In this document: positions 172 to 63,865 of the stretch, piece by piece
How positions within the stretch are numbered: the stretch's first letter is position 1
Layout of the letters: each line of letters opens with the position of its first letter
From: Longitalea luteola
Lineage (GTDB): Bacteria > Bacteroidota > Bacteroidia > Chitinophagales > Chitinophagaceae
DNA length: 64,000 bases
NCBI RefSeq assembly: GCF_017356035.1
Contig: NZ_JAFIQX010000003.1
Coordinates: forward strand, 186,001 to 250,000
Direction of reading: 5' to 3'
Translations under genes and position numbers: made by a program
The notes under the pieces: model-generated
Told to the model about the DNA's origin: nothing
Database searches by the model: none
The model's input: the letters and a program-made list of their open reading frames with translations, nothing else

Positions 172-271
172 GTGCCGGTTACCGGTTACCAGGTAACAAT
201 TGCAGGGCTGCTGATAAATAGTTATCAGGCTAAAATTTCAAGGCCCGGTAACTGGTAACCGGTAACTAATT
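172..271. repeat. Heptad array, GGTAACN/TTACCGG word (two blocks)
   Basis: Positions 172-206 read as five consecutive 7-bp words (GTGCCGG, TTACCGG, TTACCAG, GTAACAA, TTGCAGG) and 244-271 as four more (CCCGGTA, ACTGGTA, ACCGGTA, ACTAATT). The spacer between M28 and argH is mostly this repeat. The same word returns at 1583, 2092, 12342, 17520, 28657, 28740, 30015 and 54071. Confidence 0.8.
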
Positions 272-278
272 CATACTA

Positions 279-1577
279 TTAAAACTTCTTCAATACACCC
301 TCCATCACCTCCACAATTTCCTCATTGCACAAATTACCAATGCTGCCTTCGTGTACATGATGCAATTGTTTTTTATAGTCGAAGGAGAACTCGCCTTTTT
401 CGATCTGATTACCTACCTGTTTATAAGCCTCGCGGAAAGGAATGCCTTTGTTCACCAGTTCATTTACCGCTTCAACACTAAAGAGGTATTTGTATTTCTC
501 GTCATCGAGGATATTGCTTTTTACTGACAGGTTCTGCAGCATTAAGCGGGTCATTTGCAAACAGGCTTTTAATTCTTCGATAGCCGGGAACAATATTTCC
601 TTCGTCAGCTGCAGGTCGCGGTGATAACCCGATGGCAGGTTCGCCAGCAATAACGACAGTTCATTAGGCACTGCCACTATGCGGTTGCATTTGGCCCTGA
701 TCAGTTCAAATACATCCGGGTTTTTCTTGTGCGGCATGATACTGCTGCCGGTAGTTAACTCAGCGGGGAAGGAGATAAAGCCAAAATTCTGGTTGATATA
801 CAAGCAACAGTCCATGGCCAGGCGGCCGATTGTGCCAGCAATACCTGACAGGGCAGTAGCAATTACTTTTTCTGTTTTACCGCGGCTCATCTGGGCGTAA
901 ACCGAATTCCAGTTCAGTGTTTTAAAGCCTAATAATTCGGTCGTTCGTTTTCTGTTCAATGGAAAGGAGGAGCCATATCCGGCGCCACTGCCTAATGGAT
1001 TTTTGTTGGCTACCTGGTAAGCGGCTGCAAGGCCTTCCATATCATCGGTAAGGCTTTCTGCATAAGCGCCCAGCCATAAACCAACCGAGGAGGGCATGGC
1101 TATTTGCAGGTGCGTATAACCGGGTAATAAATGGTCTTTGAATTTTTCGCTTTGGGCGATCAGCAGGTCAAAGGTTTCTTTTACTTTTTCTTTTACAGCC
1201 AGCACTTCGGCACGCAGGTACAATTTTATATCAACTGCCACCTGGTCGTTGCGGCTACGGCCACTATGTATTTTCTTGCCGGCTTCGCCTATACGTTGGG
1301 TGAGCATGAATTCAACCTGCGAGTGTACATCTTCAATGCCTTCTTCAATGCTGAAGCGGCCCTGCTCGATATCTGCAGCAATGGCTTCCAGTCCTTTTAC
1401 AGCGGTTTCGGCTTCTTCTTTCGACATCAAACCTACTTCACCCAGCATGCGTACATGCGCTATGGAACCCTGTACATCGTATTTTGCCAGAAGAATATCA
1501 AATTCCTTATCGCGGCCAACGGTGAATTGCTCTACTAGTTGTGACGTGCTGGTTGATTCTTTGCTCCACAATTTCAT
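279..1577 (-). CDS. argH: Argininosuccinate lyase
   Basis: Last step of arginine synthesis: splits argininosuccinate into arginine and fumarate, in the cytoplasm. The 432 residues are near the family's usual length. The aspartase/fumarase superfamily signature GSSIMPHKKNP is at residues 277-287 (mobile catalytic loop with the active serine), and the substrate-binding HSGRSRNDQ motif at 104-112. ATG start at 1577. It is the most distal gene of the minus-strand arg operon and is separated from argE by a four-helix-bundle gene. Heptad repeats lie at both ends. Function is secure. Confidence 0.97.
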   Translation of the reverse strand: MKLWSKESTSTSQLVEQFTVGRDKEFDILLAKYDVQGSIAHVRMLGEVGLMSKEEAETAVKGLEAIAADIEQGRFSIEEGIEDVHSQVEFMLTQRIGEAGKKIHSGRSRNDQVAVDIKLYLRAEVLAVKEKVKETFDLLIAQSEKFKDHLLPGYTHLQIAMPSSVGLWLGAYAESLTDDMEGLAAAYQVANKNPLGSGAGYGSSFPLNRKRTTELLGFKTLNWNSVYAQMSRGKTEKVIATALSGIAGTIGRLAMDCCLYINQNFGFISFPAELTTGSSIMPHKKNPDVFELIRAKCNRIVAVPNELSLLLANLPSGYHRDLQLTKEILFPAIEELKACLQMTRLMLQNLSVKSNILDDEKYKYLFSVEAVNELVNKGIPFREAYKQVGNQIEKGEFSFDYKKQLHHVHEGSIGNLCNEEIVEVMEGVLKKF

Positions 1578-1582
1578 GGTTA

Positions 1583-1631
1583 ATCGGTTTCCGGTTACCG
1601 GTTTCCAGTTGCCAGGCCGGCTACCAGAAAA
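1583..1631. repeat. Heptad array between IVP-like gene and argH
   Basis: Seven-base words related to GGTTTCC/GGTTACC (for example TTCCGGT, TACCGGT, TTCCAGT) fill the gap just upstream of the argH start. The array downstream of the same four-helix-bundle gene's partner side (2092-2119) carries the same word in the other orientation. Confidence 0.75.
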
Positions 1632-1653
1632 CAGTACCTGTTAATTTGTTTTA

Positions 1654-2031
1654 TTAAATGAATTCATTGAGATTTGATTCTACCCACTGAATATACTTAT
1701 TAATTCTTTTACTTAACAAGTCGTAATCGCTTCTCAATTTTTTATATAACTCGGCGTTCCTGAGAGAATTGGTTTCAAAAAGAAAATCCAGATGTACTAT
1801 TGTTTCGTCACATTCAGACTGAGAAAATATTAAATATTTAATAAAGTCGGCTTTATATCTTCTTCTGCCATATCCTTCCACGATCATCGATGCAATTGAT
1901 TTTGATGAACGTCTAATTTGACTTCCTTCTTCAAATAACTCGTGTCTGGGTAAGGTCATCGTCATTTTATGAATCTCAATAGCAAGGCGTTTTGATTCAA
2001 CATAAATTTCTAAATCCCTGTAACTTGACAT
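1654..2031 (-). CDS. Four-helix-bundle protein (23S rRNA intervening-sequence protein family)
   Basis: 125 residues matching the small all-helical family first found in intervening sequences of 23S rRNA genes (TIGR02436/PF05635 type). Visible hallmarks are the N-terminal YRDLEIYVESKRLA helix, the QIRRSSKSIASMIVEGYGR segment (family pattern Q-x-R-R-A-x-x-S-I-x-x-N-I-A-E-G), and the D-F-I-K-Y-L helix. The biochemical role of free-standing copies is unknown. They are structurally related to the Avd accessory protein of diversity-generating retroelements, but no reverse transcriptase is present here. The gene interrupts the arg operon between argE and argH, has a hairpin just upstream of its ATG and is bracketed by heptad arrays. 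A paralogue sits at 6461. Confidence 0.88.
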   Translation of the reverse strand: MSSYRDLEIYVESKRLAIEIHKMTMTLPRHELFEEGSQIRRSSKSIASMIVEGYGRRRYKADFIKYLIFSQSECDETIVHLDFLFETNSLRNAELYKKLRSDYDLLSKRINKYIQWVESNLNEFI

Positions 2032-2034
2032 AGT

Positions 2035-2060
2035 AGAGTGGTTTATATGATAAACACTCT
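2035..2060 (-). promoter_or_regulatory. Inverted repeat immediately upstream of the four-helix-bundle gene
   Basis: AGAGTG(g)TTTAT, spacer, ATAAACACTCT pairs over 11 bp with one bulged base, 3 nt upstream of the ATG at 2031. It could be an operator or a 5'-UTR hairpin. The paralogue at 6461 also has hairpins directly upstream (6826-6841 and 6843-6862). Confidence 0.4.
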
Positions 2061-2091
2061 AATCAAGAACTTTAACCTGTGATTGTATTCC

Positions 2092-2119
2092 CGGTAACTG
2101 GTAACCGGTAACTGGTAAC
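2092..2119. repeat. Heptad array (C/T)GGTAAC x4
   Basis: Four in-phase heptads alternate CGGTAAC, TGGTAAC, CGGTAAC, TGGTAAC. The array ends 5 nt before the argE stop codon (complement of 2125-2127). Confidence 0.85.
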
Positions 2120-2124
2120 CGTGA

Positions 2125-3198
2125 CTACAGTATCTTCTCTAACAACTTAACGTACAACTCTATCCCTTCAAGAACTTCATTTATAACGATGTATTCATCC
2201 GCCGTATGACTGCGGGCGGAGTCGCCGGGGCCCATTTTCAATGCCTGGAAGGGCATCAGGGCTTTATCGGATGTAGTAGGGGAACCATAATAGGTCCTGC
2301 CTAGTGCAAGGCCCGATTGGATCAACGGATGATCGAGTGCAATAGAAGTGGAACGTAAACGCGTACTGCGGGGCACTACTTCACACTGCACATGCTGGTG
2401 AATGGTTTCCAGGATCTCTTCAAAGGTATACAACTCATTTACCCGCGTGTCTACCACAAACTTTGTTTGCGCCGGTACCACATTGTGCGCTTTGTTGTCG
2501 GTTTCAATGACAGTTACACTCATTTTTACGGGTCCCAGCAAGTCAGATACTTTAGGAAATTCGTACGATTGAAACCAGGATATATCTTTTATTGCTTTAT
2601 AAATGCTGTTCTCGCCTTCATTGCGGGCGGCATGGCCGGCTTTGCCGTGTGCCACACAGTCGAGCACCATCAGTCCTCTTTCGGCAACGGCCATTTGCAT
2701 TTGGGTTGGTTCGCCAACGATAGCGCAGTCAATTTTGCCAAGGTGGGGTAATACCAGTTCTATTCCATCCCTGCCGCTGATCTCTTCTTCTGCGGAGGCA
2801 GCTAATACCACGTTGTATTTAAGAGCTGGCTGCTGATTAAAATACAGGAAGGTGGCAATCAGTGCAACCAGCGGACCGCCGGCATCATTGCTGCCCAGAC
2901 CGAATAATTTGCCATCTTTTTCAACCGGTGTGAACGGATCGAGGGTATAGTTCTTATTTGGTTTTACGGTATCGTGGTGGGAGTTCAGTAAAATGGTGGG
3001 CTTGCTGTCGTCAAAAAATGCATTGCGGGCATATATGTTGTGCTTAACACTCTTTACAGACACGCCGTGTTTCTCGAGGAATCTTTTGAGAATATCAGCT
3101 GTTTTGTCTTCTTCTTTACTGAAAGAAGGGGTGCTGATCAACTGCTTCAGTAATTCAATGGCGCTTTGCTGAAGGGTATGTAATGTAAGATTATTCAT
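2125..3198 (-). CDS. argE: M20 family N-acyl-ornithine/citrulline deacylase
   Basis: Zinc-dependent M20 peptidase-family hydrolase that removes the acyl group in arginine synthesis. Because argF' is present, its substrate is probably N-acetyl- or N-succinyl-citrulline. Metal-site motifs are visible: HHDTVKP (about residue 74), SNDAGG (about 105), the catalytic AEEEISG segment (about 136) and the late ARSHTADEY histidine. I place the start at the ATG at 3198, overlapping the argB stop by 8 nt; a TTG two codons upstream (3204) is less likely. It lies between argB and a four-helix-bundle gene. Specificity is inferred from the operon. Confidence 0.88.
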   Translation of the reverse strand: MNNLTLHTLQQSAIELLKQLISTPSFSKEEDKTADILKRFLEKHGVSVKSVKHNIYARNAFFDDSKPTILLNSHHDTVKPNKNYTLDPFTPVEKDGKLFGLGSNDAGGPLVALIATFLYFNQQPALKYNVVLAASAEEEISGRDGIELVLPHLGKIDCAIVGEPTQMQMAVAERGLMVLDCVAHGKAGHAARNEGENSIYKAIKDISWFQSYEFPKVSDLLGPVKMSVTVIETDNKAHNVVPAQTKFVVDTRVNELYTFEEILETIHQHVQCEVVPRSTRLRSTSIALDHPLIQSGLALGRTYYGSPTTSDKALMPFQALKMGPGDSARSHTADEYIVINEVLEGIELYVKLLEKIL

Positions 3199-5100: not shown

Positions 5101-5194
5101 GCCTGTAGCAGGAAGGAATTTTAATTATGAAATATGTTAAAGTAAGCTTAAGGCTGGCTCACGACATTCGGTCAGTTTTCAACCTTCTCAATCT

Positions 5195-5292
5195 TCAGCC
5201 TTCAGCGTTTTACATTTAGCGTTCAGCGTTCAGCGTTTTGCGTTTAGCGTTTTGCGTTCAGCGTTTTGCGTTTAGCGTTTAGCGTTCAGCGT
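5195..5292. repeat. Heptad array (14 units) TYAGCGT/TTTGCGT
   Basis: Fourteen consecutive in-phase heptads: TCAGCCT, TCAGCGT, TTTACAT, TTAGCGT, TCAGCGT (x2), TTTGCGT, TTAGCGT, TTTGCGT, TCAGCGT, TTTGCGT, TTAGCGT (x2), TCAGCGT. The argD stop codon (complement of TTA at 5272-5274) is inside the twelfth unit, so the last residues of ArgD (TLNAKR) are encoded by the repeat. The same word recurs at 21008-21056 and 47655-47696. Confidence 0.92.
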
Positions 5293-6433: not shown

Positions 6434-6468
6434 TTAGTAATAAGTTATAAGTAATAAGTTCTAAGTTG
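6434..6468. repeat. Heptad array TAAGTTA/TAAGTAA
   Basis: Units TAAGTTA, TAAGTAA, TAAGTTC, TAAGTTG occupy 6441-6468. They start 8 nt upstream of the argD ATG and contain the stop codon of the four-helix-bundle gene (complement of 6461-6463). The same word flanks the other side of that gene at 6866-6900. Confidence 0.8.
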
Positions 6469-6823
6469 CGGGCTGCCTCACTTTTTGTATCAATGCAATA
6501 AGCATAGCCTTAATCTCATTTACTTTTAAATACAATTCCTGGTAAGCAACCTCAAGCACATATCCCAGATCTTTAGCCAACAATAACAAGTATTCTGACT
6601 CGTTTGCTGATCCTAAAGCAATATTTAAAAAGTGCGCAAATTCTGAATTCTTATTTTTCCCACTCCCTTCTGCAATATTGGCCGCTATCGACATCGATGC
6701 CCGCCTCAATTGGCTTGTAAGACCATAAATTTCTTCTTTGGGGAACGCTTTTGATATTGTATACACTTTTAATGTATAGTCGTGCGCTTTTTCCCACACT
6801 TTCAGAGATTTATAATTTTGCAT
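6461..6823 (-). CDS. Four-helix-bundle protein (23S rRNA intervening-sequence protein family), second copy
   Basis: 120 residues of the same family as the gene at 1654, with YKSLKVWEKAHDYTLKVY at the N terminus and QLRRASMSIAANIAEGSG, an almost ideal match to the family signature. The two copies differ strongly in sequence, so this is not a recent duplication. The gene interrupts the arg operon between argC and argD. Arrays of one word, TAAGTTA/AACTTAN, lie on both sides and supply its stop codon. Two short inverted repeats (6826-6841, 6843-6862) precede the ATG. Function is unknown; insertion as a mobile cassette is an inference. Confidence 0.88.
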   Translation of the reverse strand: MQNYKSLKVWEKAHDYTLKVYTISKAFPKEEIYGLTSQLRRASMSIAANIAEGSGKNKNSEFAHFLNIALGSANESEYLLLLAKDLGYVLEVAYQELYLKVNEIKAMLIALIQKVRQPAT

Positions 6824-6865: not shown

Positions 6866-6900
6866 AACTTACAACTTAATACTTATAACTTAAAACTTGC
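6866..6900. repeat. Heptad array AACTTAN x5
   Basis: AACTTAC, AACTTAA, TACTTAT, AACTTAA, AACTTGC run in perfect 7-bp phase and end exactly at the argC stop codon (complement of 6901-6903). Confidence 0.88.
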
Positions 6901-7950: not shown

Positions 7951-7970
7951 ACTCATAACTTTCATTTAAA

Positions 7971-8033
7971 CGGTCAACGGTCAATGGTCAATGGTCAATG
8001 GTGAATAACGCCTAACTTCCAAACCCCTAACTA
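7971..8033. repeat. Heptad array YGGTCAA then TAACNNC
   Basis: CGGTCAA x2, TGGTCAA x2, TGGTGAA, TAACGCC, TAACTTC, CAAACCC, CTAACTA form nine in-phase units. They begin 5 nt upstream of the first possible argC ATG (7965), where a ribosome-binding site would be expected. Confidence 0.85.
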
Positions 8034-17405: not shown

Positions 17406-17575
17406 CAGTTACTAGTTCCAAGTTCCAGGTTTCAGGGAAATGCAATGGTTACTTGTTCCCAGAAGCCGAGCAGTAAAGTTTTAGCTACTAATAATCAATT
17501 GAGATTCCTGAAATAGGCCCCTGGTAACTGGTAACCGGAACCTGGTAACCCTGTAACCTGCAACTTGCAACGCTC
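17406..17575. repeat. Heptad arrays, RGTTCCN and GGTAACN words
   Basis: 17406-17433: CAGTTAC, TAGTTCC, AAGTTCC, AGGTTTC. 17520-17575: CCTGGTA, ACTGGTA, ACCGGAA, CCTGGTA, ACCCTGT, AACCTGC, AACTTGC, AACGCTC (eight in phase). They fill the gap between two convergent genes. Confidence 0.8.
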
Positions 17576-18637: not shown

Positions 18638-19126
18638 TTAATGCTTAACGTTTAACGCCTAACGCCGAACCTGCCTGCCTTGCTTCGACGAAACGTCGCG
18701 AAAGCGTAACGGGCAGCGTAACGACGGCCGCGAAAACCAGGGGCTTAACGCCCTGGCTGTATGCTCTAGTATTTTGCACTCCGTGTTTCTGCCGGGTGCT
18801 TTATACCGCCACGATACAGCGCTATGGTGCCGGCGAAGTTTCGGCGAAGGTAAGGTTGAAATGCAGGAACAGTATTCTTTATTTGGCGCTCTTTTGCGAA
18901 GCTTCAGTCGCTTGCGCCATAGCTCCGTCCGGCGGCATATCTGCAGCCGGGTTGTCTACCGATTGCGCACGAAGCAAGGCGTTGGTGTTGTATCCGTTTC
19001 CGCTGCACATTTGCATATTTGCATGGGCAGGGTGCTGTTTTCACGGGCGTAAGCGTTAAGCCTTTTTCGTGTAAATTTGCGCTACAGCAAAAACGGCCGC
19101 CGTTTTATTAAACCTAAAAAACTGAA
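18638..19126. other. Gene-free 489-bp GC-rich spacer with repeats
   Basis: 18641-18672 holds heptads (TTAACGT/TAACGCC word) directly upstream of gldB. 18672-18760 is a GC-rich mosaic (CGACG..CGTCG hairpin, CCAGGG..CCCTGG hairpin) that shares CCTTGCTTCG and CCTGCC words with 20935-21000. 18770-19060 has two overlapping plus-strand ORFs that I do not believe in: no known motif and no recognisable initiation. The nadE promoter box is at 19072. Confidence 0.5.
19072..19079 (+). promoter_or_regulatory. -7 box TAAATTTG of nadE
   Basis: Exact match to the Bacteroidota TAnnTTTG element, 47 bp upstream of the nadE ATG. No clear -33 TTTG at the expected distance. Confidence 0.5.
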
Positions 19127-20934: not shown

Positions 20935-21056
20935 GCGTTCTGCGCCTGCCTGCTGCGTCTTCGCTAAGCTACGGCGAAGCAAGGCCGGCAGGCACGTTTC
21001 GCCATTTCGCGTTCCGCGTTAAGCGTTTCGCGTTAAGCGTTTTGCGTTAGGCGTTT
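20935..21056. repeat. GC-rich mosaic repeat followed by heptad array NGCGTTN
   Basis: 20947-20998 starts and ends with TGCCTGCC/GGCAGGCA and contains CTTCGC..GCGAAG arms, a large imperfect hairpin sharing words with 18666-18690. 21008-21056 is seven in-phase heptads: CGCGTTC, CGCGTTA, AGCGTTT, CGCGTTA, AGCGTTT, TGCGTTA, GGCGTTT. The stop of the lipocalin-like gene (complement of 21047-21049) is inside them. Confidence 0.8.
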
Positions 21057-21490
21057 CTAACCCATTTTTTAATATATCGTTCAGGGCCATTGGCAGAGCG
21101 GTATTCAATATATACTTCGAGTGTATAATTATCGAGCGTTTTGATGATATAGGTTCGATCGTCGATCATGATCTGGTTATTATCCTGACTTGATAATTGC
21201 CAGTTAAAACTAAAGCCTGTGGCGGCGCCGCATCTCACCGGGCCTTCATCTTCTGTAAGTTCATTATTGGGGTTGAAAGACCAGATATCATCCTGCTCGC
21301 AACTGTACATCAGATTTTCATAATTGTCGATGATCCAGTTGAAGTCATCATCATATCCATAATACACCATCGTCCAGGTTCCCCTGGTTAATATTTCTGT
21401 TTTTGTTTGCATGGGAGATTTACTACAGCCGGTAAGAACAGCAGCGAAAAGTAATAACAGGGCAAAGGATCTTGTAAAGGTTCTTTTCAT
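21047..21490 (-). CDS. Lipocalin-like lipoprotein
   Basis: 147 residues with a lipoprotein signal (FALLLLFAAVLTGC, lipobox LTGC) and a beta-rich body starting LTRGTWTMVYYGYD, the W-containing first strand of lipocalin-like domains. Two further cysteines (SCEQDD and VRCGAA) are spaced as in its neighbour at 21672, so the two are probably paralogues. The last three residues (RNA) and stop come from the heptad array. Ligand unknown. Confidence 0.7.
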   Translation of the reverse strand: MKRTFTRSFALLLLFAAVLTGCSKSPMQTKTEILTRGTWTMVYYGYDDDFNWIIDNYENLMYSCEQDDIWSFNPNNELTEDEGPVRCGAATGFSFNWQLSSQDNNQIMIDDRTYIIKTLDNYTLEVYIEYRSANGPERYIKKWVRNA

Positions 21491-30014: not shown

Positions 30015-30300
30015 AGACAGTTACCGGTTACCGGATACCGGTTTCCAGGGCTTTTGCTTCACAGCCCTGAACAATTGCCGGTTTACCGGATACTGGTTTC
30101 CGGGGCTGTTGCTTCGCAGGCCTGAACAGTTACCGGTTACCGGTTACCGGTTACCGGTAACCGGTTTCCGGGCTTTTGCTTCGCAGCCCTGAACAATTGC
30201 CGGTTTACCGGATACCGGTTTCCGGGGCTTTTGCTTCGCAGCCCTGAACAATTGCCGGTTTACCGGATACTGGTTTCCAGGGCTTTTGCTTCGCAGGCAA
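30015..30300. repeat. 55-bp minisatellite combining heptads and a GC hairpin
   Basis: Units begin CCTGAACA at 30064, 30121, 30188 and 30243 (spacing about 55, 67, 55), with a partial first copy. Each has four CCGG-containing heptads (for example ATTGCCG, GTTTACC, GGATACT, GGTTTCC) and then the hairpin GGGC-TTTTGCTTCGCA-GCCC. The 67-bp copy holds two extra heptads (GTTACCG repeated). Minus-strand frames through it give only repetitive peptides. Confidence 0.92.
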
Positions 30301-31508: not shown

Positions 31509-31541
31509 CAGGAGCCAGTTCTCTGGTTCCTGTTTTTTTAT
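31509..31541 (+). terminator. Second orphan plus-strand terminator
   Basis: CAGGAGCCAG, four-base loop, CTGGTTCCTG (10 bp with one G-T pair) then TTTTTTTATTTTT. T-tract is on the plus strand only, yet no plus-strand gene precedes it. 31287-31508 shows nothing else convincing; a minus-strand 70-codon ORF there is unsupported. Confidence 0.65.
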
Positions 31542-31545
31542 TTTT

Positions 31546-31580
31546 CACCACTCACCGCTCACTATTCACCACTCACCATT
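31546..31580. repeat. Heptad array CACCACT x5
   Basis: CACCACT, CACCGCT, CACTATT, CACCACT, CACCATT in phase. The last unit provides the first bases of the DUF5686 stop codon (complement of 31579-31581). Confidence 0.88.
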
Positions 31581-34086
31581 AGAATTGTAATCTAAAGCTA
31601 CCAAATACGCCCCAGCGTTGAGAAGCTGCTTCGGGCAACGGTTGGGGTAATACCCGCCAAACAAAATCAAACCGCAATACCTTGAAGATATTGTCAACAC
31701 CGGTGCCAAGCTCCAGGTATGTTTTACCATCCAGTGATTCAAAAATGTAAGTCGAACCGGCAGGCATATTCAACCCCTTGTTCTCTTCACTCAGGCTGCC
31801 CCACAATCCTTTAACCGTATAGAACTGGCGGAACTTTAACCTGCGCGTAAGCGGGGTGAAACGGAAAATACCCGCTCCGATATTATGTTCGAAATTGAAA
31901 CCGGCATACTGGTCGTGCAGGTATTGCCAGCGGTTCATTAAGCTATATGCATACTTGTTATAATAATAGATCTCATTACCGGGCGCTACATCCAACATCA
32001 TAAAAGGTAAGGTGCCGAAGGTCTTACCGCCAAATACGTTATAATAAACCGTTCCGTACGGTGATATTTTTAAGTAGTCGGAAATACTGCCGCTTAATTT
32101 GCTGTATTCATAATGGCTGTCAAACACACCCTTCATACCTCTTGTGTATTTGATGGTAGTGATAGGATAGGGGCTCCCCATGCTATACCGGTAAAAGGTA
32201 CCTTCCAGGAATTTTTCCAGATAAGCAAAACGGAGTTGTACCGAAGCTTCAAACGTATTTAATGGTTTTGTACCGCCATTGCCATCCAGGAAGATCTCTT
32301 TTTCGGGCAGGTTCAATAATGGGTTGTACAACTTCCGAACGCCACTCAGTGTAACGGAGAAACCGGAATGCCATTCTTTGAACAGATCCAGCTGCATTAA
32401 TTCTGTTTTCAGGAATTTAATGGGCACACCGTTCTTTCTGACCGCCAGCGCAAAAATGTTATCCTGGCTAACCTCATCTAAATAGTTCTGGCCGTAGTCA
32501 ATGTCTTTTGAATACTTCGCAAAAATATAGGCGCGTGGATTTTTATTGAACAGCCACATGGCGTCCGCTTCATATTTGAATTGCTGGTCTTTGGTGCCAT
32601 ATGCCAGATAACCATGTAACCGCAGCTTTTTACTGAAGTACTTGTTGGTGCCCAGGTCCCAGCGAAAACGCCATCCTTCCAGCACGTTCGAGAATACCCA
32701 GTTGTACCAGGGACCGATCTCGAAATTGCCCACATCGAGGTAACCTGTTGCCAGGAAATTGACCGTTTTCACTGCACGTTGAAAAGCGGGTAATTTTAAG
32801 AGGGTATCGATGGTTTGGTACAGTTTCTTTTCCGTTACGGTCAATTCTTCATGGCGATTTTGAGCCCAGAATGAATCGGGCGCATTATTCGCCTGAGGCG
32901 GAAATATCGTTTCTTCGATCAGTTTGTTCTTCGCCAGTTCATTGGTTACCGACGTATCATTTACCACAACGTCTTTGTAGGTAGTGGTCTTTCTGCCAAT
33001 AGCCGCCAGCATTTTTTCGCCCGATAAAAGGGAAAGGTCTACCACAAATTTATCTCTGGTAAGGAACCAGGTGGTATCGTTCAGCAGACTGAATTCCTGG
33101 ATCAGGCTCAGCTTGTTCACATAGTTCACATTGGCTTCTTTGCCCAGGCGAAGGTTCATTTTCTGAATGGCAAAAGTGGTGTCATGCACCCAGCAATCGC
33201 CTTCAAAAGTGTTTTGTCCTTTATGTTTCGGTATAAAGAAGAAGTGAATGAGCCGGCGGCCGTTCACCATTTGCGTATCCAGCACTTTGTAATTGTAGAA
33301 GGCGTCGCCGTTATCGCTGATGGGACTAACAAACTGTTTATCGAATACGGGGATGAAGTTGGCGTAGAAGTTTACGTTCTGATCGATACCGCCCAGGAGT
33401 TTCGACACGCTTTCATTGTTCACCCCGAGGCTTTTGGTGCCTTTAAATACTTCCCGGCGCCGAAGCGGCGATTTCTGATAGTAATAGTTTGAAATGGCCT
33501 CTGTAATATAAACCGGTAAATAGGGCACACCCTCTTCGGTGGTGTCAATATTGTTCAGCACAAAATTGAACTTCTTGATGAAGGGCAGGTTCTCCCATTT
33601 TTCTTTTTTGATGTTCTTGATATCTACTTCCAGTTTATTGTACAACTCGTAGGAGAAATTACGGAAGCGGTAGCGGTCATTCTTGGCTTTGTGCTTTACA
33701 ATGCGTTTCCACATCAGCAGGCCGCGGTCGATCTTTTTCTTAACTACCACGGCGTCAAACTTGCCGCGTTCCATCAATATACTGATGTCTAAAACATTGT
33801 CTTTGGCACGTTGCAGCAGAAAGCTGTCGAATGGCAATTTAAAATCCCGATAACCTACGTAAGAGATGATCAGGGTGTCTGTAGGCCATTCGTTAAAACG
33901 AAAGATAAATGATCCTGCTGAGTCGCTGAGTTTGCCGGTTTTTTGAGATTTAAATTGCATAGAGGCGAAAGGGATACGTTCGTCGCTATGGGCATCTTTG
34001 ACAGTTCCTTTCAGTATCCTGGTTTGAGCTATTGCGTTTTGGGTCAACAATATCAACAGCAGGAGTTTAAGTGGTCTAATAGGCAT
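31579..34086 (-). CDS. DUF5686 family outer-membrane protein with carboxypeptidase-like regulatory domain
   Basis: 835 residues from the ATG at 34086 (MPIRPLKLLLLILL signal peptide ending AIAQ). A TTG 10 codons upstream coincides with the promoter box and is rejected. Residues about 25-100 form a CarboxypepD_reg-like domain (ILKGTVKDAHSDERIPFAS), followed by the DUF5686 body and a C-terminal part rich in alternating aromatic strands ending FGSFRLQF, typical of outer-membrane barrels. The function is unknown. Related proteins occur throughout Bacteroidota as single genes, as here. Confidence 0.85.
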   Translation of the reverse strand: MPIRPLKLLLLILLTQNAIAQTRILKGTVKDAHSDERIPFASMQFKSQKTGKLSDSAGSFIFRFNEWPTDTLIISYVGYRDFKLPFDSFLLQRAKDNVLDISILMERGKFDAVVVKKKIDRGLLMWKRIVKHKAKNDRYRFRNFSYELYNKLEVDIKNIKKEKWENLPFIKKFNFVLNNIDTTEEGVPYLPVYITEAISNYYYQKSPLRRREVFKGTKSLGVNNESVSKLLGGIDQNVNFYANFIPVFDKQFVSPISDNGDAFYNYKVLDTQMVNGRRLIHFFFIPKHKGQNTFEGDCWVHDTTFAIQKMNLRLGKEANVNYVNKLSLIQEFSLLNDTTWFLTRDKFVVDLSLLSGEKMLAAIGRKTTTYKDVVVNDTSVTNELAKNKLIEETIFPPQANNAPDSFWAQNRHEELTVTEKKLYQTIDTLLKLPAFQRAVKTVNFLATGYLDVGNFEIGPWYNWVFSNVLEGWRFRWDLGTNKYFSKKLRLHGYLAYGTKDQQFKYEADAMWLFNKNPRAYIFAKYSKDIDYGQNYLDEVSQDNIFALAVRKNGVPIKFLKTELMQLDLFKEWHSGFSVTLSGVRKLYNPLLNLPEKEIFLDGNGGTKPLNTFEASVQLRFAYLEKFLEGTFYRYSMGSPYPITTIKYTRGMKGVFDSHYEYSKLSGSISDYLKISPYGTVYYNVFGGKTFGTLPFMMLDVAPGNEIYYYNKYAYSLMNRWQYLHDQYAGFNFEHNIGAGIFRFTPLTRRLKFRQFYTVKGLWGSLSEENKGLNMPAGSTYIFESLDGKTYLELGTGVDNIFKVLRFDFVWRVLPQPLPEAASQRWGVFGSFRLQF

Positions 34087-34113
34087 TCTTATAAGGTCGG
34101 TTTGTTTCCGGCC

Positions 34114-34121
34114 CAAAAATA
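34114..34121 (-). promoter_or_regulatory. -7 box of the DUF5686 gene (TATTTTTG on the minus strand)
   Basis: Plus-strand CAAAAATA is an exact reversed TAnnTTTG, 28 bp upstream of the chosen ATG. Confidence 0.45.
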
Positions 34122-44087: not shown

Positions 44088-44729
44088 ATGCTTACAGTGA
44101 CATCTTTTACATTTAGTCCGGTTCAGGAGAATACGTATGTGGTGTATAACGAAACCGGGGAATGCTGCATTATCGACCCGGGGTGCTATTTCGGCAATGA
44201 ACGCAATGAATTAAAAGAATTTATACAAACTTCCGGCCTTACGCCTAAATATTTGTTAAATACCCACTGTCATTTAGACCACGTATTCGGAAACAAATTC
44301 ATCCACGAAACCTGGGGGCTAACCCTTCACCTGCATGAAAAAGAAAAGCCGCTGCTGGAATATGCGCCAACGTTTGCTGTATCGTGGGGGCTGCCCTTCG
44401 ATAATTACAAAGGTGACCTAATCTTTTTACGGGAAGGTGACACCGTAGCGTTGGGTACTGATGCATTACAGGTATTATTTACACCCGGTCATTCGCCCGG
44501 ACATATTGCATTTTATTGTAAGGCGCAGCAGTTTGTGCTTGGAGGCGATGTTTTGTTCCATCAAAGCATCGGCCGTACCGACCTGCCGGGCGGAGATTTT
44601 GAAACCCTCATTGCCAGCATCCGCAACCAGTTATTTGTTTTACCCGACGATACTGTAGTTTACCCCGGCCATGGCCCGCAAACAACGATCGGCTATGAAA
44701 AAAAACATAATCCCTTCCTCAAAAACTAA
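44088..44729 (+). CDS. MBL-fold metallo-hydrolase (glyoxalase II-like)
   Basis: 213 residues with the zinc motif THCHLDHVFG (about 63-72), the later GHSPGHIAFY histidine, GGDVLF and the final YPGHGPQTT. This is the short glyoxalase II-like group; substrate unknown (thioester or persulfide hydrolases are possible). Its stop is 7 bp before the 44737-44970 repeat array, across which it converges with the flippase gene. Confidence 0.9.
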   Translation: MLTVTSFTFSPVQENTYVVYNETGECCIIDPGCYFGNERNELKEFIQTSGLTPKYLLNTHCHLDHVFGNKFIHETWGLTLHLHEKEKPLLEYAPTFAVSWGLPFDNYKGDLIFLREGDTVALGTDALQVLFTPGHSPGHIAFYCKAQQFVLGGDVLFHQSIGRTDLPGGDFETLIASIRNQLFVLPDDTVVYPGHGPQTTIGYEKKHNPFLKN

Positions 44730-44736: not shown

Positions 44737-44970
44737 ATTTCTGATTTTGAGATTTCGCGATTTCGACATTTAATCAATCCCGAATCCTGATTTCTGATTT
44801 CTGATTTTGAGATTTCAGGATTTTATATATCCAGAAATCAGAAATCCCGAAATCTAAAATTATTGCTGATCACTAATTTCTGATTTCCGATTTCTGAATT
44901 CTGATTTCTGATTTTGAGATTTCAGGATTTAATAAATCCCTAAATCAGAAATCTCGAAATCTCGAAATCG
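44737..44970. repeat. 230-bp heptad array TTTCTGA/GAAATCN between convergent genes
   Basis: Runs of TTTCTGA, TTTTGAG, ATTTCAG, GATTTCG-type heptads alternate with their complements (AAATCAG, AAATCCC, GAAATCT), so the array is both tandem and inverted and can fold on itself. It fills everything between the two stop codons and ends at the flippase stop (complement of 44971-44973). Confidence 0.9.
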
Positions 44971-47445: not shown

Positions 47446-47486
47446 AACGCTGAACGTTTAACACAAAACGCTTAACGCTTAATCCG
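47445..47486. repeat. Heptad array AAACGCT/TAACGCT
   Basis: AAACGCT, GAACGTT, TAACACA, AAACGCT, TAACGCT, TAATCCG in phase. The first unit begins with the last base of the upstream gene's TAA stop. Confidence 0.85.
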
Positions 47487-47567
47487 CCAAAGGCGTACAC
47501 GCGCGGAACGCCTGGAAAGCCAACAGGCTTCAGAAAATGTAATTGTAAATCTGTTTAATAGTTTTAG

Positions 47568-47610
47568 CGCGTCCCGTTCCGGCTTAGCCGGGAACGGGAC
47601 GCGTTTTTTT
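47568..47610 (+). terminator. Strong terminator of the coiled-coil protein gene
   Basis: CGCGTCCCGTTCCGG, five-base loop, CCGGGAACGGGACGCG (about 15 bp, one bulge) and TTTTTTT. Confidence 0.9.
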
Positions 47611-47612
47611 GT

Positions 47613-47645
47613 AGGTGTGGCACACTTCCAAAGTGTGCCACACCT
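47613..47645. repeat. Palindrome, copy 2 of the 41-bp element
   Basis: AGGTGTGGCACACTT, three bases, AAGTGTGCCACACCT. Compared with 26303-26343 the T-A stem pair (CATAC..GTATG) is replaced by C-G (CACAC..GTGTG), keeping the pairing. Confidence 0.88.
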
Positions 47646-47654
47646 TGCACTGTA

Positions 47655-47696
47655 TTAGCGTTCTGCGTTTGGCGTTCAGCGTTCCGCATTTAATGC
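47655..47696. repeat. Heptad array TNNGCGT
   Basis: TTAGCGT, TCTGCGT, TTGGCGT, TCAGCGT, TCCGCAT, TTAATGC. The last unit contains the stop codon of the diheme peroxidase gene (complement of 47690-47692). Confidence 0.85.
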
Positions 47697-50480: not shown

Positions 50481-50604
50481 ATGCTAATGTGATAATGAGC
50501 CAATGTGCTAATTTGCTAATGAAAAATCCATTGCGAGTAGAAATTGAGGATCCATTGACCATTGACCATTGACCATTCACCATTGACCATTCACCATTCA
50601 CAAT
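50481..50604. repeat. Heptad arrays GCTAATN and CCATTSA
   Basis: 50481-50522 has degenerate NNGCTAA words. 50552-50600 has seven perfect units: CCATTGA x3, CCATTCA, CCATTGA, CCATTCA x2. The last ends 4 nt before the ATG of the MazG-like gene, leaving no room for a separate ribosome-binding site. Confidence 0.9.
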
Positions 50605-60093: not shown

Positions 60094-60828
60094 GTGGGAA
60101 TCCTGGACCGCTTTTTAGGCAAAGAAGAGAATCTTTCTTTTAAAAAGAATCTGCGCAATGTACTGGGTTTTACCCCAGGCAAGCTCGCATTATATAAGGC
60201 TGCCCTTACACATAGGTCGGTAAGGGATAATGCCGACGAAAATAATGAACGGCTCGAGTACCTCGGAGATGCAATACTCAGTGGGATCGTAGCCGATTTT
60301 CTTTTTAAGAAATACCCCTACAAAGAAGAAGGCTTCCTCACCGAAATGCGCTCCAAAATGGTGAATCGTAACAAGCTCAACGAGATCGCCATCAAAATGG
60401 GCTTAAAAAAGATCACTTTCTACAATAAGTTCGACAATTCGCTAAAGATGAGCCAGATCTTTGGCAATACCCTGGAAGCTGTGGTTGGCGCCATTTACCT
60501 CGACCGGGGCTTTACAAAGACCAAACAATGGGTGTTTGAATGCATCATCATTCCCCATTTGTATATGGAAGACCTGGAGAACCTCGAGATCAACCACAAA
60601 AATAAATTATACGGCTGGGCCAATAAGAACGGCAAGAACCTCGAATTTGAAACCCTCGATGAACGCATTGAAGGTGGCCGCCGCCTCTTTACCATCGGCG
60701 CCGTTGTCGATGGCGAATTACTGGCCGAAGGCAAAGCCTATAATAAGAAAGACGCCAGCCAGATAGCCGCCGCCATCGCTATAGATAAACTCGGTTTGAA
60801 TAAAACCGAAGCAGCGGAGGAGGAATAG
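60094..60828 (+). CDS. rnc: Ribonuclease III
   Basis: Double-strand-specific endonuclease for rRNA and mRNA processing. About 244 residues: the catalytic signature NERLEYLGDAIL (about 50-61), the second acidic motif NTLEAVVGAIYLD, and a C-terminal double-stranded-RNA-binding domain (KNKLYGWANKNGKN..ASQIAAAIAI). No ATG fits; GTG at 60094 (MGILDRFLGKEE) is my choice, with TTG at 60085 the alternative. The stop is followed at once by a 14-unit heptad array. Confidence 0.95.
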   Translation: MGILDRFLGKEENLSFKKNLRNVLGFTPGKLALYKAALTHRSVRDNADENNERLEYLGDAILSGIVADFLFKKYPYKEEGFLTEMRSKMVNRNKLNEIAIKMGLKKITFYNKFDNSLKMSQIFGNTLEAVVGAIYLDRGFTKTKQWVFECIIIPHLYMEDLENLEINHKNKLYGWANKNGKNLEFETLDERIEGGRRLFTIGAVVDGELLAEGKAYNKKDASQIAAAIAIDKLGLNKTEAAEEE

Positions 60829-60926
60829 AGGCAAAAGGCAAAAGGCTGAAGGCAAAAGGCTGAAGGCTGAAGGCTGAAGGCTGAAGGCTGAAGGCTGAAG
60901 GCTGAAGGCTGAAGGCTGAAGGCTGA
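60829..60926. repeat. Heptad array (14 units) AGGCTGA/AGGCAAA
   Basis: Starts on the base after the rnc stop: AGGCAAA x2, AGGCTGA, AGGCAAA, then AGGCTGA x10, with no phase slip. It is the most uniform array in the window and so likely the youngest. Confidence 0.96.
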
Positions 60927-61411
60927 AGATCTTGGCGGCGCAAGGTCGATTATAAATTTCAGTCGAAAGAAACTATTTCACTATCTGCTATTGAACTTAC
61001 CGTTAACTTCTATACCTCAATTTTCACGGTCACTGGTTACGCGGCAACTTAGTCAACTTATACTGGCCAACTTATATTACTCTCACTGTCCCTCCATTCA
61101 CTGTCCTTTATTAACAGGATCTACCGGTCAACCAGGCCAGCCGGTAAGCCCCTCAATGCAGCGACCCTTAAAGAGTTCCCCTTATTGTAAAATATTTCCA
61201 TATATGGGAAGATTTCCGGCAGTTGGTGATTGGTTCCTGCGCAGGAAATAATGTTTTTTTGAGAATTTATGAAACTTGCATATAAGGCTGAAGTTCACTT
61301 GTTTGTACAGGAAAAAACGTCATCAAAACAGTTAACGATACCCTTCGTTTTTACCATACCAGGTAAATCAGGTACGTGTATTGAAAATATACTGTCGTAA
61401 CTGTTCACCCG
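60927..61411. other. Gene-free spacer of about 480 bp
   Basis: Contains loose CAACTTA/GTTAAC words (61000-61080) and a short CACTGTCC repeat (61084-61110). An 86-codon plus-strand ORF (60991-61251) shows no family motif and has Ser/Pro-rich random-looking composition; I do not call it. Confidence 0.4.
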
Positions 61412-62371
61412 ATGAAATCAATTTACACGATCCTAGTATCCTTTCTGATGACAACCAGCCTGATGGCTGAATCGATCACCGCCAAAACAGGCGATTGGGA
61501 TAAGCCAACGTCCTGGAACCAGGGCCGTATCCCAGCCAATGGCGACAGCATTATAATCCCGGAAAATAAAACGGTAATCCTCGACGGCAATGCCGATCTG
61601 GAAAACGTAGTACTGATCATCAAAGGCGTATTGCAACTGGAAAACGGCAAACTGAGATTTGACCTGCCGAGCCGCATCATCATTTATACCGGCGGAAAAA
61701 TAACCGGTATCAACAATAACGATCAGGTAAAAATTGGTGATGAATTTAAGTTCAGAGGTTCACAGCTCGTTCAAACAGGCTATAGCTACGCTGATCAGTC
61801 AACAGGCGATGGCTTTTTATCTGCAGCGGTGCTGCCCGTTATCTTTCAATCTTTTTATGTTACCCGCCAGGGATCAACTATCCAGCTTAGCTGGAGCACA
61901 AGTGAAGAACTGAACAACCAGTATTATGCAGTGGAAAAAAGCGCCGATGCGCGCAGCTGGAAACAGGTTGCTGTAGTGGCCGGTGCAGGTACATCAAACC
62001 TGGTGAACAAATACGGTTACACCGATAAAAATATTACTGATGCAGTGGTATATTACCGCATTCGCCAGGTAGACATAAGCGGTGCTGTCTTTTATTCTGC
62101 CATCCGCTCCCTGCGTAATAGCGGAACCAGCCAGGTAGCTGACATCTATGCTTCATCCAACAAAACAGTTACCATCGACTTTAACAGCGATATAAAAGAT
62201 AACGTTTCCATACAGTTGATAAACATGAGCGGGCAGGTGATCGTGCGTAAGGAATTTCACCAGGCTTCTTACCGGCTTGTCGTAAACGCGATGAGTGCCG
62301 GCTCCGGTGTGTACGTTGTACGGGTTAGTGATAACAAGGGCTGGAGCGAGGTTAAGAAAATAGCATTGTAG
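61412..62371 (+). CDS. Secreted protein with type IX secretion sorting domain
   Basis: 319 residues: signal peptide (IYTILVSFLMTTSLMAES), a G8-like beta-rich N-terminal part (AKTGDWDKPTSWNQGRIPANGDS..IIPENKTVIL), and a fibronectin-like segment (QLSWSTSEELNNQYYAVEKS). The C-terminal sorting domain is of type A form (ASSNKTVTIDFNSD..SIQLINMSGQVI..GVYVVRVSDNKG..KKIAL). It should be exported by the type IX system and processed at the surface. Ligand unknown. Ends at a strong terminator. Confidence 0.82.
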   Translation: MKSIYTILVSFLMTTSLMAESITAKTGDWDKPTSWNQGRIPANGDSIIIPENKTVILDGNADLENVVLIIKGVLQLENGKLRFDLPSRIIIYTGGKITGINNNDQVKIGDEFKFRGSQLVQTGYSYADQSTGDGFLSAAVLPVIFQSFYVTRQGSTIQLSWSTSEELNNQYYAVEKSADARSWKQVAVVAGAGTSNLVNKYGYTDKNITDAVVYYRIRQVDISGAVFYSAIRSLRNSGTSQVADIYASSNKTVTIDFNSDIKDNVSIQLINMSGQVIVRKEFHQASYRLVVNAMSAGSGVYVVRVSDNKGWSEVKKIAL

Positions 62372-62406
62372 GTTTAAATGGTCCTCATATTAGGTAAACA
62401 GTAATG

Positions 62407-62437
62407 GTTCCGCTGTGTCTACAGCGGAACTTTTTTT
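62407..62437 (+). terminator. Terminator after the T9SS protein gene
   Basis: GTTCCGCTGT-gtct-ACAGCGGAAC (10-bp perfect stem) and TTTTTTT. Confidence 0.92.
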
Positions 62438-62581
62438 GTATCTATTGCGTATATTTTTCTAACGTAACCAGCACAGTTACAGCTGATTTGGTCTATTATC
62501 TGCCCAGGGTATGGATTATTACCTATACATGTATTATATTCACCGCGTTAAGTCACTATCTTTAAAGGGAATTGCTTTGTC

Positions 62582-63196
62582 ATGTCCGCATTTGACCCGG
62601 AACGTCATATTACCAATGTAGACTACAAGATTGTAGCCGCTTTGGAAAAAATTTCTGAAGTATTCAGGGTTTTGTTATGGACAGAAGCCAAGGAACATAA
62701 GCTGAGTCCGATACAGATGCAGCTGTTGATCTTTATCAAATACCATAACTCCGATAAACAGCGCCGCATCGCTTCCATGGCGCGGGAGTTCAATCTTACC
62801 AAAGCCACTATCAGTGACTCCATTAAAGTGCTGGAACTAAAAGGATTGATAAAACGGTCAGACGATGTGCTGGATTCCCGCAGTTTTAATTTTTCGCTTA
62901 CTGAGCAGGGTATGAAGCTCACCGGCATGATAGAGAATTTCACCTTGCCCCTCGATGGCGCCATCGCTACCTTATCGCCGCTGCAAAAAGAGCAGTTTCT
63001 GATGGCGATACTTGAACTTATCTACCGCCTCAATCAGAATGGCATCATTTCTACCCAGCGCATGTGTTATAATTGTTTCTATTATAATGGCGACCGCCAA
63101 CAGGTGCACTATTGCAACCTGATGCAAAAGGCGCTGGTCATTGATGAATTGCGCATTGAATGCCCCGAGCATAAGACAACAAGCAATAGACAATAG
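62582..63196 (+). CDS. MarR-type winged-helix regulator with C-terminal cysteine cluster
   Basis: 204 residues. Winged-helix core about 38-115 (LSPIQMQLLIFIKYH, MAREFNLTKATISDSIKVLELKGLI, RSFNFSLTEQG). The C-terminal region carries four cysteines in order CYNC (about 161-164), HYC (about 178) and IEC-P-E-H (about 195), enough for an Fe-S cluster or zinc. That would make it a redox- or metal-responsive regulator; this is inferred. The -7-like box TATCTTTA is at 62557. The final NRQ and stop are supplied by a CAATAGA heptad array. Target genes are unknown. Confidence 0.82.
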   Translation: MSAFDPERHITNVDYKIVAALEKISEVFRVLLWTEAKEHKLSPIQMQLLIFIKYHNSDKQRRIASMAREFNLTKATISDSIKVLELKGLIKRSDDVLDSRSFNFSLTEQGMKLTGMIENFTLPLDGAIATLSPLQKEQFLMAILELIYRLNQNGIISTQRMCYNCFYYNGDRQQVHYCNLMQKALVIDELRIECPEHKTTSNRQ

Positions 63197-63294
63197 ACAA
63201 AAGGCAATGCGCTCGTATGGCGGGGTGTTTGATTGCTAACAAGCTGATTGCAGATAGGGTGCTTTGTCAATTGCCAATTGTCAATTGCCTATTG
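63184..63294. repeat. Heptad arrays CAATAGA and YCAATTG
   Basis: 63184-63211: CAATAGA x2, CAAAAGG, CAATGCG; contains the MarR-type stop codon (63194-63196). 63267-63294: TCAATTG, CCAATTG, TCAATTG, CCTATTG; contains the stop of the convergent epimerase gene (complement of 63289-63291). Confidence 0.88.
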
Positions 63295-63693
63295 ATCCTT
63301 CATTTCCATACAGAGTTCAATCAACACGCCATTTGTTCCTTTTGGATGTAAAAAACAAACCAGTTTGTTGTCGGCACCGCGTTTGGGTTTATCATTGAGC
63401 AGCACAAAACCCGCATCCACCAGCCGCTTCATTTCTGCTTCAATATCGGCCACCTCAAAAGCAATGTGATGGATCCCTTCGCCCTTTTTATCAATATACC
63501 GGGCAATCACCCCTTCGGCACTGCTGCTTTCGAGCAGTTCAATTTTTGAATCACCGGTTTTAAAAAAAGCAGTAGTTACCTGTTCACTTTCCACCTGTTC
63601 CGTTTTGTAACAAGGCGTATTCAGCAGTTTTTCAAACAGGGGTATCGATTGCGATAACTCGCGAACGGCAATGCCTATGTGTTCAATTTTCAT
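63289..63693 (-). CDS. mce: Methylmalonyl-CoA epimerase
   Basis: Interconverts (R)- and (S)-methylmalonyl-CoA in propionate metabolism. 134-residue VOC-fold protein beginning MKIEHIGIAVREL with metal-ligand His 5, later GEGIHHIAFEV and the ELLE/IELC glutamates. The length is normal. The last codons (KDQ) and TAG come from the CAATTG heptad array. Methylmalonyl-CoA mutase is not in the window. Confidence 0.92.
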   Translation of the reverse strand: MKIEHIGIAVRELSQSIPLFEKLLNTPCYKTEQVESEQVTTAFFKTGDSKIELLESSSAEGVIARYIDKKGEGIHHIAFEVADIEAEMKRLVDAGFVLLNDKPKRGADNKLVCFLHPKGTNGVLIELCMEMKDQ

Positions 63694-63699
63694 TTAATT

Positions 63700-63865
63700 G
63701 ATAAGTTGATAGGTTGGAAAGTTAATAAGTAATCTCAAGTTGGCAGTTTGCAAATTGTTACAGGTTACAAGTAACAGGTTTCAAGGCTTTTAAATTTGTG
63801 AACCCTGTCTGCTATACAGCCTTCCGGCGCTGAGGCCCTGTAACCTGAAACACGGAACCTGTAAC
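63700..63865. repeat. Octad GATAAGTT and heptad NNTAACN arrays
   Basis: 63700-63731: GATAAGTT, GATAGGTT, GGAAAGTT, AATAAGTA (8-bp). 63758-63785: TTACAGG, TTACAAG, TAACAGG, TTTCAAG (7-bp). 63838-63865: CTGTAAC, CTGAAAC, ACGGAAC, CTGTAAC (7-bp). Confidence 0.8.

Follow-up and report, generated by a model that had tools for sequence, protein, structure and literature searches.

The window analysed here is the whole 64,000-nucleotide stretch of the Longitalea luteola contig NZ_JAFIQX010000003.1 (positions 186,001 to 250,000), and the subject is the set of short tandem arrays of 7- and 8-nt words lying between its genes, which are here open reading frames (ORFs) chosen by length and not annotated genes. 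At a score of at least 12 the window holds 22 arrays of period 7 (heptads) and 3 of period 8 (octads), with 12 weaker ones at scores of 9 to 11, and hence the figure of about thirty stretches given by an earlier reading of the sequence alone (the sequence-only reading) was a fair one. Two pairs of arrays that are inverse complements of each other, with inverse scores of 19-24, enclose genes of family PF05635, the 23S rRNA intervening-sequence protein (IVP), in the following layout.

1585 to 1615, minus strand: heptad arm CGGTTTC, downstream of the IVP gene at 1654-2031; score 16, inverse score 21 to 2093-2121.
1654 to 2031, minus strand: IVP gene, PF05635 (23S_rRNA_IVP), 125 aa, Pfam E = 1.7e-24.
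2093 to 2121, minus strand: heptad arm GGTAACT, upstream of the IVP gene at 1654-2031.
6436 to 6467, minus strand: heptad arm AGTTATA, downstream of the IVP gene at 6461-6823; inverse score 24 to 6866-6897.
6461 to 6823, minus strand: IVP gene, PF05635, 120 aa, between argC and argD, Pfam E = 1.2e-39.
6866 to 6898, minus strand: heptad arm AACTTAA, upstream of the IVP gene at 6461-6823.

The short 7- and 8-nt intergenic arrays are real. Lag autocorrelation of the 9.3 kb of non-ORF DNA in the window, scored against 100 dinucleotide shuffles, gives z = 12.8 at lag 7, 7.1 at lag 8 and 9.7 at lag 14, with lag 6 weak (z = 2.1), lags 5, 9, and 10 at or below chance, and no lag-7 signal by this test in the coding DNA of the window. 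A sample of 1.264 Mb from the 7.3 Mb genome, made up of the window and 400 kb from each of three contigs and containing 174 kb of non-ORF DNA, raises z to about 50 at lag 7 and about 18 at lag 8, with small effects at lag 6 (z = 6) and lag 3 (z = 7), and the lag-7 and lag-8 excess over shuffles is also strong in the non-ORF DNA of a 464 kb sample. Counted as segments with a score of at least 12, the 1.264 Mb sample has 219 at lag 7 where 0.3 are expected and 100 at lag 8 where 0 are expected, and at other lags 0 (2.7 expected) at lag 5, 2 (0.7) at lag 6, 1 (0.3) at lag 9, and 1 (0.7) at lag 10; minor excesses occur at lag 4 (9 observed, 0.7 expected), lag 11 (7, 0.3), and lag 13 (4, 0). The shuffle controls rule out chance similarity in A+T-rich spacers, and the claim of the sequence-only reading that the arrays are not random is borne out. 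In the same sample an array is found in 196 of the 681 non-ORF gaps that are at least 60 bp long.

The arrays form two populations, one of period 7 with diverse words and one of period 8 with fewer. The 219 period-7 arrays use 100 canonical words, the commonest in 13 arrays, and the 100 period-8 arrays use 33, two of which make up 37 arrays; the period-8 words are A+T-rich (GC 29% versus 43% for period 7), and their arrays are more concentrated after stop codons. A constant period with varying words, and the word-tolerant process with a 7-8 nt step that this implies, were proposed by the sequence-only reading and hold up. The further claim, that the word changes from locus to locus, is true to the extent of the 100 words, but words also recur, and 7-nt words one step apart are commoner than expected, with 215.5 links where random intergenic 7-mers give 125 +/- 14. 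Palindromic 6-mers within the words are not enriched (0.11 versus 0.10).

Many of the arrays look like halves of a hairpin. The 305 arrays with enough sequence before the locus ends were searched for their best inverse-complement match up to 700 bp away, with the flanks of other arrays as the control. An inverse partner at a score of at least 12 is found for 53% of period-7 arrays versus 14% permuted (n = 210), and for 65% of period-8 arrays versus 27% (n = 95). At a score of at least 16 there are 115 entries, in which both arms of a pair can count; 87 have the partner 20-150 bp away and 11 have it at 300-600 bp. In the window, 16 of the 24 arrays tested have an inverse partner at a score of at least 15. 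The 57 pairs without an ORF have a median fold z of -5.0, with 54 below -2, which is not independent evidence because these pairs were chosen for complementarity. The pairs in the window that enclose no IVP gene are listed here, without strand.

17407 to 17571: ORF-less hairpin with heptad arms at 17407-17436 and 17521-17571; inverse score 16-17, fold z -3.4.
30020 to 30171: ORF-less heptad hairpin GTTACCG, in a 55/122-bp tandem block reaching to about 30296; inverse score 17, fold z -10.
44738 to 44969: ORF-less hairpin with mixed octad and heptad arms, between convergent genes; inverse score up to 25, fold z -6.9 (44789-44969).
47446 to 47690: inverted heptad pair AACGCTT (47446-47482) and GCGTTCT (47658-47690), between convergent genes; inverse score 17-18.
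63184 to 63294: ORF-less heptad hairpin CAATAGA (63184-63207) and TTGTCAA (63264-63294); inverse score 16-17, fold z -3.6.

The element at 44737-44970 had been taken for a single array of 7-mers, and this has to be given up for mixed 7- and 8-nt units in inverted halves. The block at 30017-30296 is a tandem repeat of a 55-bp unit (also with a 122-bp period) that carries the GTTACCG heptads together with a separate GC-rich hairpin.

This genome has nine PF05635 matches, and 96 IVP loci from five phyla were assembled from all nine of these, 70 loci taken mostly from the top scores among 345 matches in 38 other genomes, and 17 loci from 32 plasmid records, cyanobacteria accounting for 29 of the 32 records and 14 of the 17 used. 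The full pattern is defined as arrays on both sides (score at least 10), of one period, with an inverse score of at least 15. A 7- or 8-nt array is present on at least one side at 90 of the 96 loci and on both sides at 58, the full pattern is present at 54, and an inverse score of at least 15 at 79, where the corresponding counts for 480 shuffled flank pairs are 6, 0, 0, and 8. Among 290 control ORFs of 90-200 aa from this genome, 11 have arrays on both sides, 1 has the full pattern, and 3 have an inverse score of at least 15. At the nine loci of this genome the scripted test finds one side at eight, both sides at seven, and the full pattern at six. The periods to the left and right are 7/7 at 46 loci, 8/8 at 11, and 8/7 at 1. 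The upstream neighbor has the same orientation as the IVP gene at 81 of 94 loci and the downstream neighbor at 73 of 94. The sole control with the full pattern, the small gene L014:10117-10461, has octad arms on both sides, no Pfam match, and a match to the IVP profile that is not significant, and is perhaps a host gene between two hairpins. IVP genes are also seen within cyanobacterial CRISPR (clustered regularly interspaced short palindromic repeats) operons (L255:1501-1860, L258:1495-1863, and L262:1492-1848), where two plasmids have the gene between cas6 and cas4 and one has it between cas10 and a Cmr3-family gene.

The word of the arms is related to the protein that they enclose. In an IVP tree the octad elements occupy a limited number of clades and similar words are frequent among related IVPs. 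Arm-word similarity between IVPs was taken from the stronger arm of either side, with the result that some pairs compare left with right; on that measure its correlation with protein similarity is small (Mantel r = 0.119) but reached by 0 of 999 permutations. Mean word similarity is 0.55 at protein similarity above 0.7, 0.39 at 0.55-0.7, and near background below. The 38 pairs of close IVPs with unrelated flanking genes have a word similarity of 0.38 versus 0.17 permuted (0 of 2000), and unrelated-flank pairs at protein similarity 0.5-0.6 have 0.26 versus 0.17 (0 of 2000). The two arms of one element are alike at 0.61 (n = 70), with random arms at 0.19. In 78 pairs with homologous flanks on both sides, some of which cross phyla, making it uncertain that the site is the same, similarity is 0.62 within elements and 0.39 between them; the between-element value is 0.61 where IVP similarity is at least 0.7 (n = 15) and 0.14 where it is under 0.4 (n = 16), and in the latter 16 pairs the arms still agree at 0.67 within the element.

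The words of the IVP elements also extend to arrays elsewhere in the genome. When 310 arrays outside the five sampled IVP elements were compared with the eight IVP words of this genome, tolerating about one mismatch, 114 matched, versus 24.2 +/- 8.9 with IVP words of other genomes (maximum 51 in 300 draws), and this is a second sense in which words recur.

Across 49 genomes, 38 IVP-positive and 11 IVP-less, with arrays within 300 bp of an IVP gene excluded and four loci that are mainly N (L197, L205, L207, and L211) omitted, the IVP-positive genomes have 160 arrays (128 of period 7 and 32 of period 8) in 160.6 kb of non-ORF DNA, and the IVP-less have 5 in 60.7 kb. The difference in density has p = 2e-4 with kinship ignored; the IVP-less genomes are spread over about five parts of a four-protein tree. 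The domain RVT_1 is absent from 20 of the 38 IVP-positive genomes, G044 and G046 with their dense arrays among them, and occurs in 8 of the 11 IVP-less; Y1_Tnp is present in 10 of the 11 IVP-less genomes and absent from G021, the densest in arrays of the 49. That genome (L051, L286), Chitinophaga solisilvae, has 15 period-7 arrays in 3.9 kb of non-ORF DNA and just two IVP matches. An IVP-less relative of it at locus L083 has two arrays in 9.8 kb, and the IVP-less Chitinophaga G041 (L083, L204, L210, L212) has a lag-14 excess (z = 3.9) and no lag-7 excess.

The best explanation, and in our judgment probably the right one, is that a good share of the arrays represent arms of intergenic hairpin elements resembling the intervening sequences (IVSs) of rRNA, with or without an IVP gene, produced by a mechanism that we infer. 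The assignment of a good share of the arrays to IVP-linked hairpin elements is well supported; control of the period and the word by IVP is likely; and a role of IVP in driving the spread of the arrays is a reasoned guess. A complete element would start with a left arm in which one 7- or 8-nt word is repeated about 4.6 times, continue through a short stretch with a ribosome-binding site and the IVP gene, and end in a right arm inversely complementary to the left one. An ORF-less element would keep the two arms around a loop mostly of 20-150 nt, and lone arrays may be single or outgrown arms. The solved IVP homologues 2gsc and 2rld have five chains each, and the Xanthomonas one is called a homopentamer in a passage of PMC4990558. 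A ring of this kind would bind the arms, one unit to each subunit, by which the protein would set the pitch of 7-8 nt and the word that is tolerated. The arms might then be recopied from one another by way of the hairpin, and host replication or repair, suggested by the fact that RVT_1 reverse transcriptases and Y1 transposases do not track the arrays, would insert copies of the element behind stop codons.

The other arrays described in the window are lone heptad arrays, an octad array with no inverse partner found, and a weak array near the window end.

5188 to 5285, minus strand: lone heptad array TTAGCGT at the argD stop codon; score 51, best inverse score 9.
7969 to 8005, minus strand: lone heptad array YGGTCAA at argG/argC.
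18638 to 18670, no strand: lone heptad array TTAACGC; score 16, best inverse score 12.
21005 to 21055, no strand: lone heptad array TTTCGCG; score 22, best inverse score 8.
31523 to 31578, no strand: lone heptad array CTCACTA, adjoining the stop of the gene at 31579-34116; score 17, best inverse score 9.
50482 to 50520, plus strand: octad array TGCTAATG, directly after the dtd stop codon; score 17, best inverse score 9, no partner found.
50552 to 50604, plus strand: lone heptad array CCATTGA; score 38.
60829 to 60928, plus strand: lone heptad array of 14 units, 11 AGGCTGA and 3 AGGCAAA, abutting the rnc stop codon; score 81, best inverse score 7.
63738 to 63779, no strand: weak heptad array AACTGGT; score 13, with the window end too near for a partner search.

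The arrays that the sequence-only reading placed at 5195-5292, 50552-50600, 60829-60926, and 63267-63294 are essentially as it described them, and the one it placed at 7971-8033 is an array as far as about 8005 and not beyond. The AGGCTGA array, the longest of the window, comes directly after rnc, which encodes RNase III; it matches at least 45 other places in the genome and is fitted by no IVP word of its own genome. RNase III is the enzyme reported to excise rRNA IVSs. Close to the array at 21005-21055, a tRNA-Arg(TCG) at 21084-21175 overlaps a 147-aa ORF called on the opposite strand, which makes that ORF doubtful.

As to where arrays lie in the larger sample, divergent gaps have a lower density than tandem and convergent ones. 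Among the arrays of tandem gaps, a start within 5 nt of a stop codon is seen for 24% of 123 with period 7 and 39% of 57 with period 8, versus about 5% for random placement, and 10% of period-7 arrays lie within 5 nt of a start codon versus 4% by chance. A candidate cause of period 7, that its repeats supply stop codons in all frames, is unconvincing, as 7-nt words near stops carry a stop 27 times in sense and 27 in antisense of 66, and those far from stops 56 times versus 38 of 110. For 8-nt words near stops the counts are 46 in sense versus 22 of 54, perhaps because the gene's own stop falls inside the array.

Relatives with closely similar neighboring genes differ at these sites; ArgD identity to the window is 96% in Longitalea arenae and 91-92% in three Niastella species. 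At the argC/argD junction of eleven species, six have no element, four have an IVP element (the window, L030, L038, and L041) with words not all alike, and one (L033) has an ORF-less octad hairpin. At argE/argH, again in eleven species, four have IVP elements with similar arms, two have ORF-less heptad hairpins, and five have nothing; the arm preceding argH is kept in four species, and arrays lie at the position equivalent to 1585 to 1615 in L029, L030, and L032. The argE/argH gap of L032, which has an IVP element, is about 200 bp shorter than that of the window (353 versus 547), perhaps by an internal deletion that is a step towards an ORF-less hairpin. After the rnc stop, L. arenae (L312), with an RNase III 99% identical, has GCAATGG units where the window has AGGCTGA/AGGCAAA, both then continuing with TTGGCGGCGCAAGGTC; of the other four species two have other heptads and two have none. 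There is no array in 4 of 5 relatives after dtd and after the gene ending at 44729, and L029 has none at the site of 5188 to 5285. Array length, which the sequence-only reading expected to be informative between close strains, does differ between close species at argG/argC, being about 5 units in the window and about 3 in L029. Array presence and word thus differ between species whose neighbor genes are 90-99% identical, and the varied junctions therefore indicate array gain, loss, and word change over short distances at an uneven pace.

Several results weigh against the IVP-linked explanation. Six of the 96 IVP loci have no 7- or 8-nt array at a score of 10, four have one side with a best period of 5, 6, 9, or 10, and the arrays flanking the plasmid loci L255 (Pseudanabaena) and L266 (Nostoc HK-01) are long on either side but apparently direct copies, the inverse scores being 13 and 10; many of the loci are moreover at shared sites and hence not independent. 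The word effect does not reach beyond close IVPs, protein similarity of 0.4-0.5 giving 0.195 versus 0.169 (87 of 2000), and 196 of the 310 arrays, AGGCTGA among them, match no IVP word of their own genome. About half of the period-7 arrays have no inverse partner, including the longest of the window (60829 and 5188), and length does not clearly set paired arms apart, their medians being 33 nt for period 7 and 37 nt for period 8 versus 40 and 37 for unpaired arrays. In the genome comparison the p of 2e-4 is optimistic because the genomes are related, a restriction to GC under 0.5 leaves just five IVP-less genomes and p = 0.013, IVP number and array density show no dose response within the IVP-positive genomes (rho = 0.01), and 7 of those 38 have no array in the 32-41 kb sampled; the IVP-less locus L055 has a lag-7 z of 3.4 in 20 kb, although 1.3 over 61 kb. 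A target duplication, as expected of a MITE (miniature inverted-repeat transposable element), is not evident by eye at the compared junctions, where no formal test was made.

Two other explanations keep some force, and we think each of them unlikely. One is slippage alone, in which the contact of polymerase with template favors 7-nt (and 8-nt) steps and expands any word in tolerant DNA. It yields a constant period with free words, is a published idea for heptanucleotide repeats (Mrazek 2007, as recounted in a passage of PMC4679880), and agrees with the change in unit number at argG/argC and with the sparser arrays of divergent gaps. It is insufficient by itself because it does not predict the inverse pairing, the IVP gene between the arms, the near absence of arrays from IVP-less relatives, the likeness of words in close IVPs, or the complete change of word after the rnc stop between close species. 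The sequence-only reading offered slippage or a templated enzyme; the two reverse transcriptase and transposase families tested do not track the arrays. Its interpretation is supported in part, and it missed the pairing and the IVP genes.

The other, to which we give about the same low weight, makes the protein a passenger: another process would make heptad hairpins, and IVP genes would settle inside them because IVP needs such RNA. The missing dose response and the majority of arrays matching no IVP word of their genome are what this would lead one to expect; the sharing of words with the genome's own IVPs well beyond that with other genomes' IVPs, the single period of each element, and the scarcity of arrays in IVP-less genomes from about five parts of the tree are not.

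It is quite improbable that the hairpins are regulatory or terminator elements kept by selection near gene ends for mRNA processing or translation control, as proposed for the TAACTGA repeats. The enrichment of array starts at stop and start codons would suit such a role, and one near start codons is proposed for Beggiatoaceae in PMC4679880, in the part consulted, but conserved regulation is not expected to vary in presence and word between species with neighbors 90-99% identical. Weakest of all, and hardly credible, is that a reverse transcriptase (of retron, diversity-generating retroelement, or group II type) or a REP-type (repetitive extragenic palindromic) Y1 transposase moves the hairpins: in its favor are the likeness of hairpins with short loops to REP elements and bacterial interspersed mosaic elements (BIMEs), and a sub-threshold match of IVP to bAvd of diversity-generating retroelements (E = 1e-4, 23.2 bits, cut-off 40), but both agents are unsupported, as the distributions of RVT_1 and Y1_Tnp given above do not follow the arrays among the 49 genomes.

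Heptamer repeats and 23S rRNA IVSs are each already known, and among the matches listed from the open-licence literature no paper joins IVP with heptad arrays in general. The likeness to the 23S rRNA IVS with its S23p/IVP is that a PF05635 gene lies within complementary termini (as described in passages of PMC4990558, where one species has heptameric repeats, of strain-dependent number, before the S23p start). The two IVP genes of the window and the inverse scores of the 96 loci agree with that description, the ORF-less hairpins lacking the protein. The differences are that the elements here lie between protein genes, many hairpins are gene-less, the arms have a period of 7 or 8, and the words differ between elements; no Rfam family reaches threshold in the window, none of the window elements is inside a 16S or 23S rRNA gene, and they are classed as IVS-like and not as rRNA IVSs because of their location between protein genes. 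In Azospirillum (L264) the IVP gene is inside the 23S rRNA gene, and heptad arms are present.

The heptameric short tandemly repeated repetitive (STRR) sequences, or long simple sequence repeats, of Nostoc, Xanthomonas, and Beggiatoaceae share the period of 7 and a mostly intergenic location above chance. The passages seen describe TAACTGA repeats, also in five Bacteroidetes (PMC4679880), and GGGAATC heptamers in Xanthomonas, some in inverted pairs (PMC4692102), and a survey reports certain six- to nine-bp repeats enriched in prokaryotic phyla (PMC12699852, in part); the terms heptamer and heptanucleotide are absent from PMC4060949. The papers on the heptameric repeats deal with a single word or a small number of words in each genome; here there are 100 words in the sample with no dominance of a few, a second period of 8, and the link to IVP. 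A stem of 7-nt repeats with two alternative words, for which repeated replacement was inferred, forms P6b of the Nostoc tRNA-Leu intron (PMC4476775); it differs in being inside a group I intron, and the passages seen of that paper mention no IVP gene. A reverse transcriptase beside an Avd-like gene, as in diversity-generating retroelements, is not the arrangement here, given the many IVP-positive genomes in which RVT_1 was not found. REPIN/RAYT systems (REP doublet-forming hairpins and REP-associated tyrosine transposases) resemble the arrays in being dispersed hairpins related to a trans-acting gene, and differ in that the gene here is IVP, Y1 transposases do not track the repeats, and the hairpin sequence is not fixed.

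A broader proposal is more tentative, and we would sooner doubt it than accept it: IVPs could be word-reading pentameric rings that create, maintain, and spread 7- and 8-nt hairpin arms through host replication. They would then form a class of mobile element that lacks both a recombinase and a reverse transcriptase, and the heptamers of Bacteroidota and Cyanobacteria, and perhaps also those of Xanthomonas and Beggiatoaceae, could have them as a common cause. What gives rise to heptameric repeats in bacterial genomes is unsettled, and the passages of PMC4990558 seen describe S23p/IVP as a protein without known function; the link between the two makes both testable. If it is true, IVP would bind the word of its own arms, removal of IVP would freeze the arrays, and presence of IVP would predict heptamers. 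The known selfish elements would also be extended by a kind lodged between the genes of operons, including the arginine operon here and the CRISPR operons on cyanobacterial plasmids, and the connection of IVP with the hairpins may explain a kind of bacterial repeat that has long been unexplained.

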